DNA of 64,000 nt from Acidimicrobiia bacterium. Its GTDB lineage: Bacteria > Actinomycetota > Acidimicrobiia > Acidimicrobiales > Bin134. Position numbers and translations under genes: made by a program. Positions 1,413 to 9,566 of the stretch are shown here, in pieces. Positions within the stretch are counted from its first letter, which is position 1. Every line of letters starts with the position of its first letter. Under the pieces are notes generated by a model. It worked only from the letters and a program-made list of their open reading frames with translations, did not search any database and had not been told where the DNA came from. The stretch is from the NCBI GenBank assembly GCA_022822905.1, contig JAJDYE010000004.1, positions 1 through 64,000 on the forward strand. Reading direction: 5' to 3'.

Positions 1413-1491
1413 CATAGAGCCACGCTTGACCCGGTGAGTTTTCTGGTATTCGGCTCGTGTTGGGTTGAAAGTATCGGCTAGGAAAACGGCG

Positions 1492-2547
1492 ATGAATCAC
1501 CCCCCCCCCCCCCCCAGCCACACGGGTTCGCATAGCGCCTCGAACAGCTATGCCGCCCTTGCCTTTTGCTGCTTGGACGAGCTGATAACGCAGGCCGAAA
1601 CCGCGGCGCTGTCCGCCAACACCCGCAAGACCTACAAAACCGGTTGGAACAGCTGGGTCCGCTGGGCAGCCGCAAACGGCCAAAAGATCGCGAAGGCCAC
1701 AGTCAAGAATATCCAGCGCTGGCTGGCCGATCTCTATAGGCAGGGGAAGAAGCTGACCACATTGCGCACCTACCTCGCCGCGGTGGCCTACGAGATGCGC
1801 GGCCGCCCCGGCTCCAACCCAGCCCGCGACCACCGGGTGCGGCTGCTCTTGGCCGGCTTGGCCCGCAACGCCGCTGAACGAGGCATAACTGCCCGCCAGG
1901 CAGGCCCGCTGCGCCGGGAGCACATACGACGAATCGCAGCCGCCGCCCCGACGCCGAGACACAACCAGCCCGGCGGCCGGTTGGAAACCCCCGCACAAGC
2001 CCGAGAACGCGCCGAAGCCGACATCGCCATGCTCGCCGTCGGCCGCGACGCCTTGCTGCGCTGTAGCGAACTCCTCGCCCTCACCTGGAACGACATCGAC
2101 CACCCACCTGACGGCGGACTGGCCACCATATGGATCCGCCGCTCCAAAACCGACCAGAACGGCAAAGGCGCCGCCGTCGCCATATCCGAATACGCATCGC
2201 AAGCCCTCGCCCGCCTGAGAACAGCAGGCTCCGATCCCGCTGCCCGCATATTCGATTTCTCGCCCAGCACCGCCCGCCGCCGCATCAAAGCAGCAGCCCG
2301 AGACGCCGGCATCGACCCCGCCGGCATCTCTACCCACTCACTGCGCGTGGGCATGGCCCAAGACCTCGCGGCCTCGGGCATCGACATGGGCGGCCTCATG
2401 CTCGCAGGCCGATGGCACACCCCCCAGACCGCCGCCCACTACGCACGGCGCATCCAAGCCCAACACACCCCCGCCGCCCAACACCTCAAAACCCAACAGC
2501 CCCTGATTCCCTGTTCCAGGGATTCCTCCCAGGATTCCGGGGATTAA
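1492..2547 (+). CDS. Tyrosine recombinase / phage-type integrase
   Basis: This 351-aa protein has the architecture of a tyrosine site-specific recombinase: an N-terminal SAM-like core-binding domain (about residues 25-120, with TYKTGWNSWVRW) and a C-terminal catalytic domain. Catalytic residues are visible: R190 in LLRCSELLAL, the Lys in RRSKTDQ, H282-S-L-R285, W308 in AGRWHTP at the usual His/Trp position, and the nucleophile Y317 in AAHY. The ATG at 1492 is preferred because AGGAAAA precedes it; an in-frame TTG at 1465 would add nine residues. Codons 3-8 run through a 16-nt C tract. It is probably the integrase of a mobile element or its remnant; the inverted repeats upstream could be its sites. 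Confidence 0.85.
   Translation: MNHPPPPPSHTGSHSASNSYAALAFCCLDELITQAETAALSANTRKTYKTGWNSWVRWAAANGQKIAKATVKNIQRWLADLYRQGKKLTTLRTYLAAVAYEMRGRPGSNPARDHRVRLLLAGLARNAAERGITARQAGPLRREHIRRIAAAAPTPRHNQPGGRLETPAQARERAEADIAMLAVGRDALLRCSELLALTWNDIDHPPDGGLATIWIRRSKTDQNGKGAAVAISEYASQALARLRTAGSDPAARIFDFSPSTARRRIKAAARDAGIDPAGISTHSLRVGMAQDLAASGIDMGGLMLAGRWHTPQTAAHYARRIQAQHTPAAQHLKTQQPLIPCSRDSSQDSGD
1500..1515 (+). repeat. Homopolymeric C(16) tract inside the recombinase start
   Basis: Sixteen consecutive C residues encode the end of His3 and Pro4-Pro8 of the recombinase. A length change not divisible by three would frameshift everything downstream. It could be a phase-variation switch or an error-prone spot in the assembly. 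Confidence 0.9.
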
Positions 2548-2569: not shown

Positions 2570-3103
2570 CTACGCCGCGGTCAGGCGGGCGACGGCTTCG
2601 TCGATGATGGTGGTGGCCAGCTTTTGGAGCGACTCGTCGTCGAGGGTGGACACGGGGTGGGGGACGGTGACCGCGGGGTAGCTGGCCATGCCCACGGTGG
2701 GGGCGAACGACTCAACCACCGGCTCAAACGGCTCGGTTATCAGCAGCATCGAAGGGATGCCCCGGGATTCCATGTGGACGGCGTCGTGCAGACTGCACGC
2801 CGTGCAGGCCCCTCAATCGCCCAAGCCGGAAATGATGAGGTGGGAGCGGGCGGCCAGCATCTCGGCGTCGTCGGCGTCGATGGGCTTGCCAGCAGCCGAC
2901 TTGGAGTGGACCACGATGTCGGCCACCGGGAGGCGGTCGCGCAGGCCCTCGGCCACGTAGGTGAGCAGCTCTTTAGCGTTGTTCTTGGCGTTGTCGATCA
3001 CCCCGATGACCAACGGCTCAGTGGGGGTGAAGCGGGGGGCCATCGCCACTTCATCGATTTGGGCTTCTTCGTAAACCGGAGACAGAACAGTTACCGACGA
3101 CAT
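2570..3103 (-). CDS. UGSC-family selenoprotein (in-frame UGA = Sec97)
   Basis: Two apparent ORFs (N-part ending at the TGA at 2813-2815, C-part from 2773 to 2570) are in the same frame. Reading the TGA as selenocysteine gives one 177-aa protein with GLGDUGACTACSLHD, which matches the UGSC family of (seleno)proteins, where U or C precedes G-(S/A)-C. Coding character continues seamlessly across the UGA, and a hairpin fitting bacterial SECIS rules lies just downstream. The start is ATG 3103 with GAGAGGAG upstream; the longer start at 3136 would overlap the previous gene. It is 13 nt downstream of the 353-aa partner gene, so they are one operon. The U-G-A-C site suggests a redox function, but the reaction of this family is unknown to me. 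No selA, selB, selC or selD is in the window. Confidence 0.87.
2780..2801 (-). promoter_or_regulatory. Candidate bacterial SECIS hairpin
   Basis: On the minus strand the mRNA can fold as GGC-GUGCA-GUC-UGCAC-GAC-GCC: a 5-bp upper stem (2786-2790 with 2794-2798), GUC apical triloop (2793-2791) and an outer GGC/GCC pair with a 3-nt bulge. The apical loop starts 19 nt after the UGA and begins with G. Published bacterial SECIS models want a loop 16-37 nt from the UGA with a G in its first two positions, so it fits. Folding was done by eye. Confidence 0.6.
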
Positions 3104-3116
3104 GCGAACTCCTCTC

Positions 3117-4178
3117 TCACGCCAAGGGTAGTCCATCGCCGGGCGCGGCCACCTTGCGGGTGACGGCCTCCGAGTGTACGACCGGGGCCCAGTTGGGGAT
3201 GTAGGCCGACCAACCGGCTCCGGGACTGCCTGCGGTGACCAAGAAGATGTCGTCGGGCCCCCGCACGGTGTTGAGCTTGCCGTCGGCGTCGGGGGTCATG
3301 TCGTTCTGGGCGGTGAACTCCTGCAAGACGCCGCCAGCGTTCAAGTACCCGGGAGTCACCCTGCTGTGCTCGGTCAAGAACTCCCGCACCTGCTGTTTGG
3401 TCCAACCGGCCTCGGCCAGAATCTGGCGGTGCTCGTGGCCGATCACCAGCAGTACCTGGTGTTTCTTGGCCACTGCGTAGGTGGCCGGGTTGGTCATGGC
3501 AGCGGCGAAGGTCAACAGGATCCCCTCGGGGTCGCCGTTGAGGTGGTTGGCCACTTGATGGAGGCTCTCAGAGGGGAACATCGTCACCGTTGTGTCGCCC
3601 TCGCCGTAGCCCAACTCTATCCGCAGCGGCGGCCACCCCTCGGGAGGGGGCTCCTCGGCCACCAGCATCGTGTACTTGCCGGGGTGTCCTAGCGACGACC
3701 CGTCGAGGGTGTCCGACCGGGCGCCCAGCACGTTCATGGCCACCAGCCGCAGGGCCCGCCCCACCGTGGCGTTGGCCCGGTGGCCCGGCCCGAGGGCATT
3801 GCGAGAGGAGTTAAACCCCAGTTCAGCCACCAGCGGCCCGCTCACCACCGCGCACAGCGCAGCACCGCCGGTGCTGGTCACCACGGTGTGGCACCCGAAT
3901 TGGGGGTCGAACATCGCCGACAAGCCGGCAAGCACCACTGGGAAGTACTCGGTTCGGCACCCGGCCATCACTGCGTTGATCGCCGCCTTCTCCGCCGTCA
4001 CTTCTCGGGACCGCTCGGGCACGTTGCCCACGATGTCGCTCGCGCCCAATCCGGCATGGTCGAGCATCGCCTCAACCCGATCCGACGCGGGCGGAACCAC
4101 GGGCAGCCCATCGGTCCACCCCCGGTCGAAGAACTCCTCTTGCACGTCCCCCGCGTCGAGCATCAACTCCTGAGCCAT
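3117..4178 (-). CDS. Conserved 353-aa partner of the UGSC selenoprotein
   Basis: This 353-aa soluble-looking protein has no signal peptide or membrane segment. It begins MAQELMLDAGDVQEEFFDRGWTDG and carries PERSREVTAEKAAINAVMAGC, a Gly/Ala-rich STGGAALCAVVSGP segment and ELGFNSSRNALGPGHRANATVGRALRLV. I do not recognise a named enzyme. It ends 13 nt before the selenoprotein start and shares its strand, so the two are co-transcribed and probably act together, for example as catalytic and redox subunits. The ATG at 4178 has no Shine-Dalgarno but a TAGTTT hexamer 6 nt upstream, so it is likely leaderless. Confidence 0.8.
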   Translation of the reverse strand: MAQELMLDAGDVQEEFFDRGWTDGLPVVPPASDRVEAMLDHAGLGASDIVGNVPERSREVTAEKAAINAVMAGCRTEYFPVVLAGLSAMFDPQFGCHTVVTSTGGAALCAVVSGPLVAELGFNSSRNALGPGHRANATVGRALRLVAMNVLGARSDTLDGSSLGHPGKYTMLVAEEPPPEGWPPLRIELGYGEGDTTVTMFPSESLHQVANHLNGDPEGILLTFAAAMTNPATYAVAKKHQVLLVIGHEHRQILAEAGWTKQQVREFLTEHSRVTPGYLNAGGVLQEFTAQNDMTPDADGKLNTVRGPDDIFLVTAGSPGAGWSAYIPNWAPVVHSEAVTRKVAAPGDGLPLA

Positions 4179-5013: not shown

Positions 5014-5577
5014 TCAGCCGACCTCGGCGAAAAACTCTTGCCAGGTGTCAAGGCTCTCGGGGAGCTCCGACGGTCCCACCGTGCCGAAATAGCGCTTGCG
5101 GTCCGACTCCGACAGGCCGCCGTCCACCAGTGCGGCCATGTCCATGTAATAGATCATGGCCACCTTCCGCTCCACGAAGCGCCAGCGGCCGTCCTCCACC
5201 CGGTACTCGTCGAAGTAGCGCAGCGCGGTCATCAGCGTGCGACCGTCGAGGGCCAGTTCGGCGTGGGCGTTGACCATGCCGGTGGCAAAGCCGGGGCGGT
5301 CGGGATCGAACTCGATGACGTGGCTATGGGGGTAGTGGTACGTGGGCCCGAACGCGGCCATGCGCTCGGTGTAGAAATCGATCACCGCCTGCCGGCCCTG
5401 GTTGGCCACCATGCCGTCGGCCAAGGCGAACTTGGCGTCAGAGGTGAACATGTCGGCCAATCCGCTCACATCCCGGTCATCCACCGCCATGCCGTAGCGG
5501 GCCACAAGCTCCCGGATTTCCTCCCGAGCCTCCAACTGCGCAATGCGCTCGGCCAAGCCCTCAGATGCACCAGACAT
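5014..5577 (-). CDS. SnoaL-like / NTF2-fold protein
   Basis: A 187-aa protein with the SnoaL-like (NTF2) cone fold: an N-terminal helix (LEAREEIRELVARYGMAVDDRD), the FTSDAKFAL strand, and a C-terminal TALRYFDEYRVEDGRWRFVERKV block typical of the family. Members include polyketide cyclases, dehydratases and ring-hydroxylating dioxygenase small subunits. The ATG at 5577 with GAGAGGA upstream is chosen; an earlier start at 5682 would only add an unlikely Arg-rich tail. It converges on the SDR with 13 bp between stops. The exact reaction is unknown. Confidence 0.75.
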   Translation of the reverse strand: MSGASEGLAERIAQLEAREEIRELVARYGMAVDDRDVSGLADMFTSDAKFALADGMVANQGRQAVIDFYTERMAAFGPTYHYPHSHVIEFDPDRPGFATGMVNAHAELALDGRTLMTALRYFDEYRVEDGRWRFVERKVAMIYYMDMAALVDGGLSESDRKRYFGTVGPSELPESLDTWQEFFAEVG

Positions 5578-5696
5578 GCCGTTTCCTCTCCGCTCGCGAA
5601 GTTCTGCCGCCCCAGCCTGGTTTGCCGAGTCCAGCCAGCGAAAACTACCGTCGCCCTCCGTTGGCCAGCAACGCCCGGTCAACTTCTAGGGGGGCC

Positions 5697-6605
5697 ATGC
5701 TTCTAGCCTTTGGCAACTTCACAGCCGATCCGAGCGTCAACCTTCAGCTCTTGATTGGCGGATTGGCCCTCGGTGCCATCTACGCGGTGGTGGCTCTCGG
5801 CTTCGTGCTCGTGTACAAGAGCACCGACGTCTTGAACCTGGCCCACGGAGAGTTCCTGATGCTCGGGGCCTACTTCGCGTTGACGTTCTTGATTTCCGAG
5901 AATCTCAATTTCTTCCTCGGCGTGTTCGTACTGCTGCTGGTCATGCTGGTTTTCGGCTTGCTGGTCCACTACGGGATCATGCGACGAATGGTGGGCCAGG
6001 GCTTTTTCGCCATTGTGCTGATAACCCTGGGCATCGCCACGATCATCCGCGCCCTCTTGCTGATCTTCTACGGCCCGACGGAACGAGCCCGCCTCGACCT
6101 GTTGCCCCAGGGCAGCTTCGAAGTCGGCGGCGCCACCGTGAGGTATGTCGACTTGATCATTTTCGGTGTCGTGGCCGCGTGCGTGCTGCTGTTCTTCCTC
6201 TTCTTCAAGTACACCCGACTGGGCCTGCACATGCGGGCAGTGGCCGACGACATCGAGGCCGCCGCGGCCATGGGAATCGACCCCGACAAGGTCTACGCCA
6301 TGACCTGGGCCGCGGCCATGGTCATGGCCGGCGTTGGGGGACTGCTGTTCGGCCACGTCACCGGCGCCATCGATCGCAGCATCGAGGCCATCGGCCTGCG
6401 GGCCTTCCCCGCCGCGGTGGTCGGCGGGCTCACGTCGCTGGGCGGCTCCATTGTGGGCGGCCTGGTGGTGGGCGTGATCGAGCAGTTCGCCAACGGCCAT
6501 TTGGGCACCAAGTGGCGAGAGCCGGTGGCCTTCTCAGTGATGTTCGTGGTGCTGCTGGTACGCCCGACTGGGCTTTGGGGCCGGAAGGACTTGGAGCGGG
6601 TATGA
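5697..6605 (+). CDS. livH: Branched-chain amino acid-type ABC permease (LivH family)
   Basis: A 302-aa polytopic permease of the LivH family. About eight hydrophobic segments are evident, with the family signatures SLNLAHGE-like (VLNLAHGEFLMLGAY) near the N-terminus and AAAMGIDPDKVYAMTWAAAMVMAGVGGLLFG, which includes the loop contacting the ATPases, followed by GLTSLGGSIVGGLVVGVIEQF. AGGGGGG lies before the ATG at 5697. It is the first gene of a transporter operon and its stop overlaps livM by 4 nt (ATGA). In this family substrates range from Leu/Ile/Val to amides, urea and aromatic acids. Confidence 0.9.
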   Translation: MLLAFGNFTADPSVNLQLLIGGLALGAIYAVVALGFVLVYKSTDVLNLAHGEFLMLGAYFALTFLISENLNFFLGVFVLLLVMLVFGLLVHYGIMRRMVGQGFFAIVLITLGIATIIRALLLIFYGPTERARLDLLPQGSFEVGGATVRYVDLIIFGVVAACVLLFFLFFKYTRLGLHMRAVADDIEAAAAMGIDPDKVYAMTWAAAMVMAGVGGLLFGHVTGAIDRSIEAIGLRAFPAAVVGGLTSLGGSIVGGLVVGVIEQFANGHLGTKWREPVAFSVMFVVLLVRPTGLWGRKDLERV

Positions 6606-7945
6606 CGGCTGTCGAGAACCCCGCCTCCCAACAAGAAGATTCCCCGACCTATCGCCCGTCGCCCGTCCAGCGGTTCCTCCCGTTCGCCATCGCCGCGGTC
6701 GTCCCGTTCATCCTGGGCTCAACCACCGAGAATGTGAATTTCTGGTGGAAGGCGCTGATCACGGTGGTGGTCTTGGCCGTGGTCGCCCGAATGGCCTGGG
6801 TGTGGACACCCCGGGGCGAGCTGACCCACCGGGAGGACATGCGGCTGTGGCGCACCCCCAGCGATCGGTCGTGGGCCGCGGTGACCACCTTTGGACTGCT
6901 GGTGCTGCCCTTCATTTTGGCCTCCGACTTCACCCCTCCCATGGACTTCCCCTGGGCCACCTGGTTCGCGGTGGTCAATCTGGTGCTCATCTTCGCCATG
7001 GGCGCCGCGGCCTTCAACCTTCTGGTGGGCTACTCCGGCCAGATCAGTCTGGCCCACGTGGCGTTCTTGGCTTTGGGCAGCATCGTCGGCGGCATCGTCG
7101 GCGTGCAGTGGAGCGGCGGGAATATGTGGGTGGCCCTGCCCGCTGCGGCCTTGGCCGGAGCCGTCGTGGGCGCAATATCCGGTCTGCCCGCCCTGCGGCT
7201 CAAGCACCTCTACCTTCTGCTGGCCACCTTCGGATTCCACTTCGTGATGATGCTGGTGTGGCGGGAATACCTCCAGGAGTACTTCGGCTTCGTCGGCATC
7301 CGCTTCAAGGGTGAGAACTCCCCGCGGATCGCCTCGTGGCTGCACTGGCTGCCCGGCATCGACCCTGACGACAACGGCGAGTTCATCATCACCGGTCAAT
7401 TCCGGTGGTACTGGGTACTCATGCCCATCACGGTGCTGTCGATTCTGTTCATGGTGAACGTGGTTCGGACTCGGGAGGGGCGGGCCTTCGCCGCAGTGCG
7501 CGACCGGGATGTGTCCGCATCGCTGCTGGGCATCAACGTGGCCCGATCCAAGCTCTTGGCCTTTGCCCTGTCTTCAGCGGTGGTGTCCATGTCTGGTGTG
7601 CTGGCCTCCTTCTACATCGGCTCTCGGGGGGAGGACAGCTTCAACGTCCAGACCGTGCTGAACTACGCCATCATCATCGTGGTCGGCGGCTTCTCCAGCA
7701 TTCAGGGGGCCATCTTCGGCTCGGCGTTCTTCTGGTTCCTGCCCGAGTGGTTCAAGTGGGCCCGAGAGGAACTCTGGATCGTGAGGGATATCGACTTCCT
7801 CAGCGACTACCCCAGCGAGATCGACTTGGCCATCAAGGGGTTCTTGGTGGTGATCATCTTGATGTTCAAGCCCGATGGGCTGGCCGGGCTGTGGAAGGAC
7901 GTCAAGGGCTGGATTGGCCGTTCGCTGGCGAGGAGGGGGCCATGA
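6602..7945 (+). CDS. livM: Branched-chain amino acid-type ABC permease (LivM family)
   Basis: A 447-aa permease of the LivM family, longer than the usual ~330 aa because of an N-terminal hydrophobic extension (first ~120 residues with extra membrane segments). The family core follows: FNLLVGYSGQISLAHVAFLALGS, GLPALRLKHLYLLLATFGF, and RDRDVSASLLGINVARSKLLAFALSSA, then GGFSSIQGAIFGSAFFWFLPEW. The ATG overlaps the livH stop and the TGA overlaps the livF start, so the operon is translationally coupled. Confidence 0.9.
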   Translation: MTAVENPASQQEDSPTYRPSPVQRFLPFAIAAVVPFILGSTTENVNFWWKALITVVVLAVVARMAWVWTPRGELTHREDMRLWRTPSDRSWAAVTTFGLLVLPFILASDFTPPMDFPWATWFAVVNLVLIFAMGAAAFNLLVGYSGQISLAHVAFLALGSIVGGIVGVQWSGGNMWVALPAAALAGAVVGAISGLPALRLKHLYLLLATFGFHFVMMLVWREYLQEYFGFVGIRFKGENSPRIASWLHWLPGIDPDDNGEFIITGQFRWYWVLMPITVLSILFMVNVVRTREGRAFAAVRDRDVSASLLGINVARSKLLAFALSSAVVSMSGVLASFYIGSRGEDSFNVQTVLNYAIIIVVGGFSSIQGAIFGSAFFWFLPEWFKWAREELWIVRDIDFLSDYPSEIDLAIKGFLVVIILMFKPDGLAGLWKDVKGWIGRSLARRGP

Positions 7946-8772
7946 GCTCTGACGGACTCGACCTTCGGATCGAAGACCTCACGGTGGTGTACGGGGGCGT
8001 CACTGCGCTGGACAACGTGAACATCACCGTGCCCCCCGGCGGGTTCGTCACCGTCTTGGGGGCCAACGGCGCGGGCAAGACCACCTTGGTCCGGTCGATC
8101 ACCAGCCTGCTCTATCTCCATAAGGGCCGAGTGCGCCGGGGGGACATCACGCTGGGGGGCGAGTCGATCCTGGGCAAGAAGAGCCCCGACATCGTGAAGG
8201 CCGGCGTGGCCCAAGTACCCGAGGGCCGCAAGCTGTTCCCCAACCTAACGGTCAAGGAGAACCTGCTGTGCGGGGCGGCCAGTCGCTCCGACGTCGACGC
8301 CATCGACGATTCCCTGGAACAGAACCTGGAGCTGTTCCCCCAGCTTCGGCCGCTGTTGAACCAGACCGCTGGTTTGCTTTCGGGCGGCGAGCAGCAGATG
8401 GTGGCGGTGGGACGGGCGCTGATGTCGGATCCAGCCCTGTTGATCTGCGACGAGCTGTCGCTGGGCCTGGCCCCCAAGATCGTGCATCGCCTGTTCGAGC
8501 TGCTCACCGAGATCAACGAGAGGCGGGGCACGTCGATTCTGGTGATCGAGCAGAACGCCAGCTTGGCACTACAGCACGCCGCCGATGCCTATGTGCTCGA
8601 ACTGGGCCGGGTGCTGATCGAGGGCACCGCCGATGAGCTCCGGGGCAATCCCATGGTGCAGGAGCTGTATCTGGGCGGCGGCGGGGAGGCCCACACCTCC
8701 TACGCCGCTATAGAGCGGCCCAGTCGCCGCCCGGAATCCCACGGCCGACGGCCACCGGTATCCGAGACATGA
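7942..8772 (+). CDS. livF: ABC transporter ATP-binding protein (LivF family)
   Basis: A 276-aa ATPase. Walker A is GANGAGKTT (about residues 39-47), the Q-loop region reads VAQVPEGRKLFPNLTVKENL as in LivF proteins, the signature is LSGGEQQM, Walker B is ALLICDEL with LSLGLAP after it, and the H-loop slot has Q (LVIEQN), which is normal for LivF. A short Arg-rich C-terminal tail is extra. It pairs with LivG on the cytoplasmic face. ATGA overlaps at both ends. Confidence 0.92.
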   Translation: MSSDGLDLRIEDLTVVYGGVTALDNVNITVPPGGFVTVLGANGAGKTTLVRSITSLLYLHKGRVRRGDITLGGESILGKKSPDIVKAGVAQVPEGRKLFPNLTVKENLLCGAASRSDVDAIDDSLEQNLELFPQLRPLLNQTAGLLSGGEQQMVAVGRALMSDPALLICDELSLGLAPKIVHRLFELLTEINERRGTSILVIEQNASLALQHAADAYVLELGRVLIEGTADELRGNPMVQELYLGGGGEAHTSYAAIERPSRRPESHGRRPPVSET

Positions 8773-9566
8773 GCGACGAGATTCTGAGCTTCGAAAACCT
8801 CACCGTGCAGTTCGGTGGCGTGCGGGCCTGCGACGCCATCGACGGCCACGTCAAGCGAGGCTCCCTGTTCGCCTTGATCGGGCCCAACGGAGCGGGCAAG
8901 ACCACCCTGGTCAATGCCATCTCCGGCGTCTACAAGCCGCTGCCCGGCGCCCAGGTGCAATTCCATCCCGCGGGCAAGCCAACCGAGGATCTGCTGTCCT
9001 ACCGCCCCTTCCAGATCGCCCGGCTGGGGGTGGCCCGGACGTTCCAGAACCTTGGTCTGTTCATGGGCGAGAACGTGCTCACCAACCTGCTCCTCGGCCG
9101 CTACATCCACGAGCACACCCGGCTCATCGAGGGCGGCCTGTTCACTCGAAGGGCAGTAAAGCGGGAACTGGCCGCCCGCCAGGCCATTGAACGAGTGGTG
9201 GATTTGCTGGACCTGGGCTCGTTCAAACGAGAGCCGGTGGGCGATTTGCCCTACGGGGTGCAGAAGAGGGTCGAATTCGGCCGAGTGCTGGCCATGGAGC
9301 CGGAACTGCTGATGCTCGATGAGCCCATGGCCGGCATGAGCGTGGACGAGAAGCAGGACATGATCCGCTACATCTACGCCGCCCAAGACGAGCTCGATAT
9401 GACGGTGTTCCTCATCGAACACGATATGAGCGTGGTGATGTCGATCGCCGACCATGTGATGGTCTTGGACTTCGGCCAGAAGATCGCAGAGGGAACCCCC
9501 GTGGAGATGCAGCAGGACGAGCGAGTGATCGCCGCCTACCTCGGAACCGAGATGGCCGAGAACTGA
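8769..9566 (+). CDS. livG: ABC transporter ATP-binding protein (LivG family)
   Basis: A 265-aa ATPase of the LivG family: Walker A GPNGAGKTT (about residues 37-45), GVARTFQNLGLF as the Q-loop (R-T-F-Q-N is typical of LivG), Walker B LLMLDEPMAGM, and the H-loop LIEHDMSVVM. The ABC signature is degenerate (DLPYGVQKRVEFGRVLA instead of LSGGQ), as often in LivG. The last gene of the tightly overlapping livHMFG block; the binding protein follows after 137 nt. Confidence 0.92.
   Translation: MSDEILSFENLTVQFGGVRACDAIDGHVKRGSLFALIGPNGAGKTTLVNAISGVYKPLPGAQVQFHPAGKPTEDLLSYRPFQIARLGVARTFQNLGLFMGENVLTNLLLGRYIHEHTRLIEGGLFTRRAVKRELAARQAIERVVDLLDLGSFKREPVGDLPYGVQKRVEFGRVLAMEPELLMLDEPMAGMSVDEKQDMIRYIYAAQDELDMTVFLIEHDMSVVMSIADHVMVLDFGQKIAEGTPVEMQQDERVIAAYLGTEMAEN

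Follow-up and report, generated by a model that had tools for sequence, protein, structure and literature searches.

In glycine reductase, the selenocysteine (Sec) of protein B attacks the activated substrate, and UGSC proteins rank with the most abundant selenoproteins of aquatic metagenomes. The Global Ocean Sampling selenoproteome includes the 'UGSC-containing protein', in 255 Sec and 21 Cys forms, and also reports a fusion of it to a domain named 'Unknown_1' (PMC2398784). By our present reading of a 2016 table, the family comprised 33 genes in 26 organisms (PMC5029168), and a 2026 review counts it among the families with largely uncharacterised functions (PMC13188914). Here we describe a UGSC locus in a 64,000-nt stretch of DNA ('the window', by which we mean the whole stretch analysed), taken from a 3.80 Mb genome that is 95.65% complete. 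The explanation that we favour as a whole, with a probability of roughly 0.9, is that an in-frame UGA is decoded as Sec in a UGSC gene and that this gene belongs to a conserved two-gene cassette. The features concerned are as follows:

2570..3103, minus strand: predicted UGSC-family selenoprotein gene, 177 aa, Sec97, ending in TAG (PF24696 and NF041046 matches; AlphaFold2 pLDDT 95.3)
2813..2815, minus strand: in-frame UGA, the predicted Sec97 codon (of 113 UGSC matches, 107 have UGA and four have Cys at the aligned site; kept in genus orthologues)
2804..2806, minus strand: codon of Cys100, the second redox residue in UxxC, here UGAC (at least 90% of 56 homologues share C100)
2785..2799, minus strand: bacterial SECIS-type hairpin, 6 bp, 15 nt (covariation, loop codon, low synonymous divergence)
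3109..3113, minus strand: Shine-Dalgarno-like AGGAG ahead of the ATG at 3103 (direct sequence reading)
3117..4178, minus strand: companion gene, 353 aa, heading the cassette (one copy beside each of the six UGSC genes of the genome; AlphaFold2 pLDDT 92.5)

Two minus-strand open reading frames, 3103-2813 and 2773-2570, share one frame and are joined over a single TGA at 2815-2813. A sequence-only reading of this DNA had proposed that they are one selenoprotein gene hidden as two pieces; both pieces lie where it had placed them, their junction reads GLGDUGACTACSLHD as it had written, and at the level of sequence the proposal has since been borne out by the family match, the Sec/Cys site, the hairpin and the Sec machinery alike. 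The read-through product has 177 aa and includes ...LIISGLGDUGACTACSLHDAVHMESRGIP.... A longer listed frame, 3136-2813 (minus), contains the piece 3103-2813, and the ATG at 3103 is the better start because AGGAG stands ahead of it at 3113-3109 and because it lies 13 nt past the stop codon of the gene before it, at 4178-3117 (minus). The same AGGAG and the same short distance between stop and ATG suggest that this upstream companion and the UGSC gene may be translationally coupled.

By its sequence, the gene at 3103-2570 is a new member of the known UGSC family. A homology search with the read-through product, the check that the earlier reading had called for, matched Pfam UGSC (PF24696) at 157.6 bits (cut-off 25), covering model positions 2-171 of 172. 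The family motif that this reading had pointed to is present as UGAC, a UGxC motif with Sec at its first position. With C written for U, the product scores 124.9 bits against NCBIfam UGSC_fam NF041046, 0.1 below the equivalog cut-off of 125, and three tested paralogues of the same genome score 72-92 bits. NF041046 thus misses divergent members, this one by a hair and the tested paralogues by far, and annotation that relies on it may therefore cut such genes at the UGA.

Truncation at the UGA is also what standard annotation would yield, and the two frames were listed mechanically. If the UGA were an ordinary stop, the gene would encode a truncated protein of 96 aa or be a pseudogene in decay, and 2773-2570 would be a remnant or a separately started peptide. 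Comparative evidence makes this highly improbable. Together, a scan for the companion gene and a search through 396 genomes from the phylum gave 113 UGSC matches in the fetched loci; at the aligned Sec site, 107 have UGA, four have Cys, one has Gly (a degenerate copy) and one is cut off. Homologues with C in place of U had been named as the telling test, and the four Cys forms fall exactly on the site. The UGA thus sits on the Sec/Cys active site of the family in more than 100 homologues across phyla, and all six paralogues of the genome carry a single stop, always at the Sec site. The continuous coding signal noted from the sequence is likewise seen in selection: among 13 same-length orthologues from the genus, all of which keep the UGA, pN/pS is 0.14 before the UGA and 0.11 after it, and values this low on both sides are not what a plain stop or a pseudogene would give. 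The hairpin and the Sec machinery, both in place (see below), also speak against an ordinary stop. Most members of the genus have five to seven UGSC copies with one TGA each; one member (G404), whose UGSC lacks the TGA, was considered as a Cys form and rejected, as a run of N (an assembly gap) covers the site.

Downstream of the UGA, the sequence-only reading had placed a SECIS-type hairpin within 2740-2830. A conserved, covarying hairpin is indeed found there, but it is smaller, occupying 15 nt at 2799-2785, and folding of the full 91-nt region (minus strand) gave z = -0.01, that is, no unusual stability, a value that is uninformative in GC-rich coding DNA. On the minus strand, the 5' arm spans 2799-2794, the loop 2793-2791 (GUC) and the 3' arm 2790-2785 (CGUGCA-GUC-UGCACG). 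The structure starts 13 nt past the UGA and occupies codons +5 to +10. Its apical loop is of the GUN type, with the G expected of a bacterial SECIS, and the hairpin is a putative binding site of SelB. Rfam, searched over the whole window at gathering thresholds, gave no match.

Across 58 ungapped homologues, 96% of the hairpin pair cells hold standard pairs, and 29 cells are changed on both sides, against 5.8 in shuffles. The covariation score is 0.322; shuffles score 0.105, with none reaching the observed value, and structures slid along the alignment score at most 0.053. Codons +6 and +8 pair through their third bases, as C-G in 86 and as G-C in 16 of 106 sequences, so that replacement of Cys by Trp goes with a matching switch of the third base in the Val/Leu/Ile codon. 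The Ser that supplies the loop is encoded by AGT in 90 of 90 cases, a codon that these loci use for about 10% of their serines. Because of these compensating third-base switches and the fixed AGT loop codon, constraint on the protein is insufficient to account for the hairpin, and by sequence comparison its covariation is beyond protein-level constraint. When codons were resampled with the protein held fixed, the Sec genes proved more stably folded than expected (mean z -2.0), while in the same test four Cys genes gave z of -1.1 to +1.3 and lack the hairpin. Synonymous divergence among genus orthologues points the same way (pS 0.04 in the hairpin codons versus 0.29 over the whole downstream part). 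Judged from these alignments, the hairpin is clearly under selection, the support coming from covariation and synonymous-site constraint and not from overall stability.

The genome also carries what decoding would need. The genes selA and selB are adjacent on one contig, both above cut-offs, a tRNA-Sec with anticodon TCA (UCA) lies on the same contig, and selD is present above its cut-off. The search for selA, selB, selC and selD that had been recommended thus found all four, and the absence of Sec machinery that would have spoken against the reading is removed. The selD gene (L024:1501-2445 (-), G000:C5:52458-53402) has an in-frame TGA (UGA) of its own within the SHGAGU motif, and selenophosphate synthetase is therefore probably itself a selenoprotein. 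In a set of 60 relatives, UGA-bearing UGSC occurs in 32 of 44 with selA and in two of 16 without it (Fisher P 5e-5, a value that overstates independence because the genomes are related); the two exceptions, G408 and G417, perhaps owe their lack of a selA match to incomplete assemblies.

Readthrough alone would also yield a full-length product, whether through a code in which UGA means Trp or through general stop readthrough. Such recoding is even less probable than an ordinary stop: the companion itself ends in UGA at 3119-3117, just ahead of the UGSC start, so UGA still terminates; the residue that homologues carry in its place is Cys and not Trp; and tRNA-Sec (TCA), selA, selB and selD are all present. 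On this combined sequence evidence we consider it nearly certain that the UGA at 2815-2813 encodes Sec97 and that one UGSC-family selenoprotein is made from 3103-2570 (minus). In the mechanism we envisage, SelB and tRNA-Sec(UCA) would decode the UGA as Sec97, guided by the short hairpin at 2799-2785.

UGSC genes rarely stand alone. The genome has exactly six, all with UGA and each adjoining one companion, and a profile search found exactly six companions, of 327-367 aa (about 350), one per UGSC. Within the fetched loci, a companion lies no more than 1 kb from 110 of 112 UGSC matches and shares the strand in 109 of these pairs, with the companion first in 87 and UGSC first in 22; conversely, 111 of 118 companions have a UGSC gene within 1 kb, some of the rest lying near contig ends. 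The companion loci span several phyla, among them Chloroflexota, Pseudomonadota, Rokuibacteriota, Acidobacteriota and Myxococcota, and at one locus (L191) a Cys-form UGSC and a companion make up one open reading frame, a natural fusion. Given the one-to-one pairing and this fusion, it is highly probable that the companion at 4178-3117 and the UGSC gene make up a conserved cassette, with UGSC in second place, and that the two products act together. The six companions are spread over different parts of the family tree (a short search, with some long branches), so the six cassettes look old and diverged and not like recent duplicates. Six Sec cassettes in one small genome are an unusually heavy investment in one family; the genome of the fusion (G426, same order) has a larger set still, of about ten UGSC matches, and the Cys-form fusion is one of them.

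The companion has an AlphaFold2 model with a mean pLDDT of 92.5 and the invariant residues D23, R141, N149, E175 and W182. Pfam gave no family for any of 59 companions, NCBIfam no credible family match for the six of this genome, and a comparison with PDB sequences nothing significant. Class I fumarase and Toblerone-fold amide hydrolase were considered as relatives and set aside; they gave partial matches only (TM 0.2-0.3, VIA Z about 5), which we do not use for function.

For UGSC itself, the AlphaFold2 model has a mean pLDDT of 95.3 and places Sec97 between a strand (89-95) and a helix (98-113). The structure matches listed are flavodoxin- and receiver-like Rossmannoid folds, with no thioredoxin, GrdB or PrdB chain among them, although a family missing from such a list may still share the fold. 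From these matches the fold is predicted to be flavodoxin-like, which speaks against the thioredoxin-like fold put forward in 2008; it reveals no function, as many unrelated proteins share it. Against GrdB-type proteins of the same phylum, each extended through its own UGA, the UGSC profile aligns over 133 columns with Sec on Sec (hhalign E 3e-5, probability 73%), a remote relationship; the controls gave E 0.34 for the companion against the GrdB type and E 0.22 for UGSC against the companion. TIGR01917 is matched at E <= 0.01 by 18 of 56 UGSC members. At 177 aa, UGSC aligns only with the C-terminal Sec region and falls short of a full-length GRDB domain. We infer that UGSC is distantly related to the Sec-bearing C-terminal domain of protein B of the glycine/sarcosine/betaine/proline reductases.

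Some observations on the GrdB side were made in passing. Pfam GRDB (PF07355) ends right before the Sec (match position 347), and reading through gives UGTGTR... in 13 of 13 loci (L142-L154); truncated sequences may have gone into the making of the model. The same genome has a GrdB C-terminal-like match in a stop-free frame at G000:C6:9709-10128 (-) (L189; E 1.6e-9, model positions 202-345), and short matches of this kind also occur in many genomes of the phylum.

Kinship to GrdB bears on what the selenoprotein does. It could be a general thiol-redox protein of thioredoxin-like type and not a GrdB-like substrate-cleaving enzyme, as UxxC resembles Sec-containing redox motifs and the fold was called likely Trx-like (PMC2398784); we hold this to be unlikely, since the confident model matches flavodoxin/receiver-type folds, the profile kinship points to GrdB, and one dedicated companion per copy is not expected of a general redox protein. 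About as unlikely is a reversal of roles, in which the companion would be the catalytic, substrate-converting subunit and UGSC would supply electrons or carry a selenol-bound group in the manner of GrdA. The companion is the larger protein, has invariant residues of its own, and in the L191 fusion is implied to be in direct contact with UGSC, but UGSC is the one akin to GrdB, the substrate-attacking part, and the companion belongs to no recognised catalytic or redox family.

We lean instead, tentatively and at slightly less than even odds, towards a view by analogy in which UGSC and its companion form an undescribed two-subunit Sec-dependent reductase, composed of a GrdB-type Sec domain and a substrate-binding protein of an unrecognised family, occurring across several phyla and here in six parallel versions for different substrates. 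The reductive mechanism carries the same reservation. Sec97, at the start of the helix, would attack an electrophilic atom in a small organic molecule that the companion holds as substrate; Cys100 would then close a selenenylsulfide, to be reduced by cellular thiols or thioredoxin; and the six diverged cassettes would differ in the substrates that they handle in peripheral catabolism. Cassette neighbours include thiolase, CoA-transferase, amidohydrolase, SnoaL, enoyl-CoA hydratase, and TctC and MFS transport genes, with no one pathway in common; such varied catabolic neighbours fit several substrates better than one, and because they vary, no substrate can be named from them. One of 62 scanned cassette neighbours (loci L027-L104) is SelA (PF03841, E 1.8e-157), a link between a UGSC cassette and the Sec machinery.

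In the window, a tyrosine recombinase/phage integrase gene (Pfam Phage_integrase, 1465-2547 (+)) converges on the UGSC gene and ends 22 bp from its stop, making a mobile element beside the cassette possible. The genes at 5565-9566 (+) and 5014-5682 (-) look by eye like a LIV-type branched-chain amino acid ABC transporter set, adjoining a SnoaL-like gene and a frame of SDR type upstream of the cassette, and are a possible catabolic uptake context.

Relative to the searched papers and libraries, the pairing with a companion, the six sets in one genome, the revised fold prediction and the link to GrdB go beyond what has been stated, and a specific companion together with remote GrdB kinship turns UGSC from an orphan family into a testable two-component enzyme. 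The gene resembles the UGSC family of 2008 (PMC2398784) in sequence family, in Sec within a UGxC motif, in its in-gene UGA and in the scarcity of Cys homologues; it differs in reading UGAC instead of UGSC, in a fold that is predicted here to be flavodoxin-like where a Trx-like one was thought likely, and in being one of six copies in a single genome, as against 33 genes in 26 organisms (PMC5029168). 'Unknown_1' resembles the companion of L191 in being a conserved domain fused to UGSC, and may be the same (PMC2398784). Unlike GrdB/PrdB (PF07355, TIGR01917, TIGR01918), UGSC is without the long N-terminal part, and its partner is a companion that does not resemble the GrdB-type alignment (hhalign E 0.34); like them, it has Sec at the same point of a similar stretch, UGSCTSCS...LExxGxP in UGSC against UGTGTRCG...LERAGIPT.
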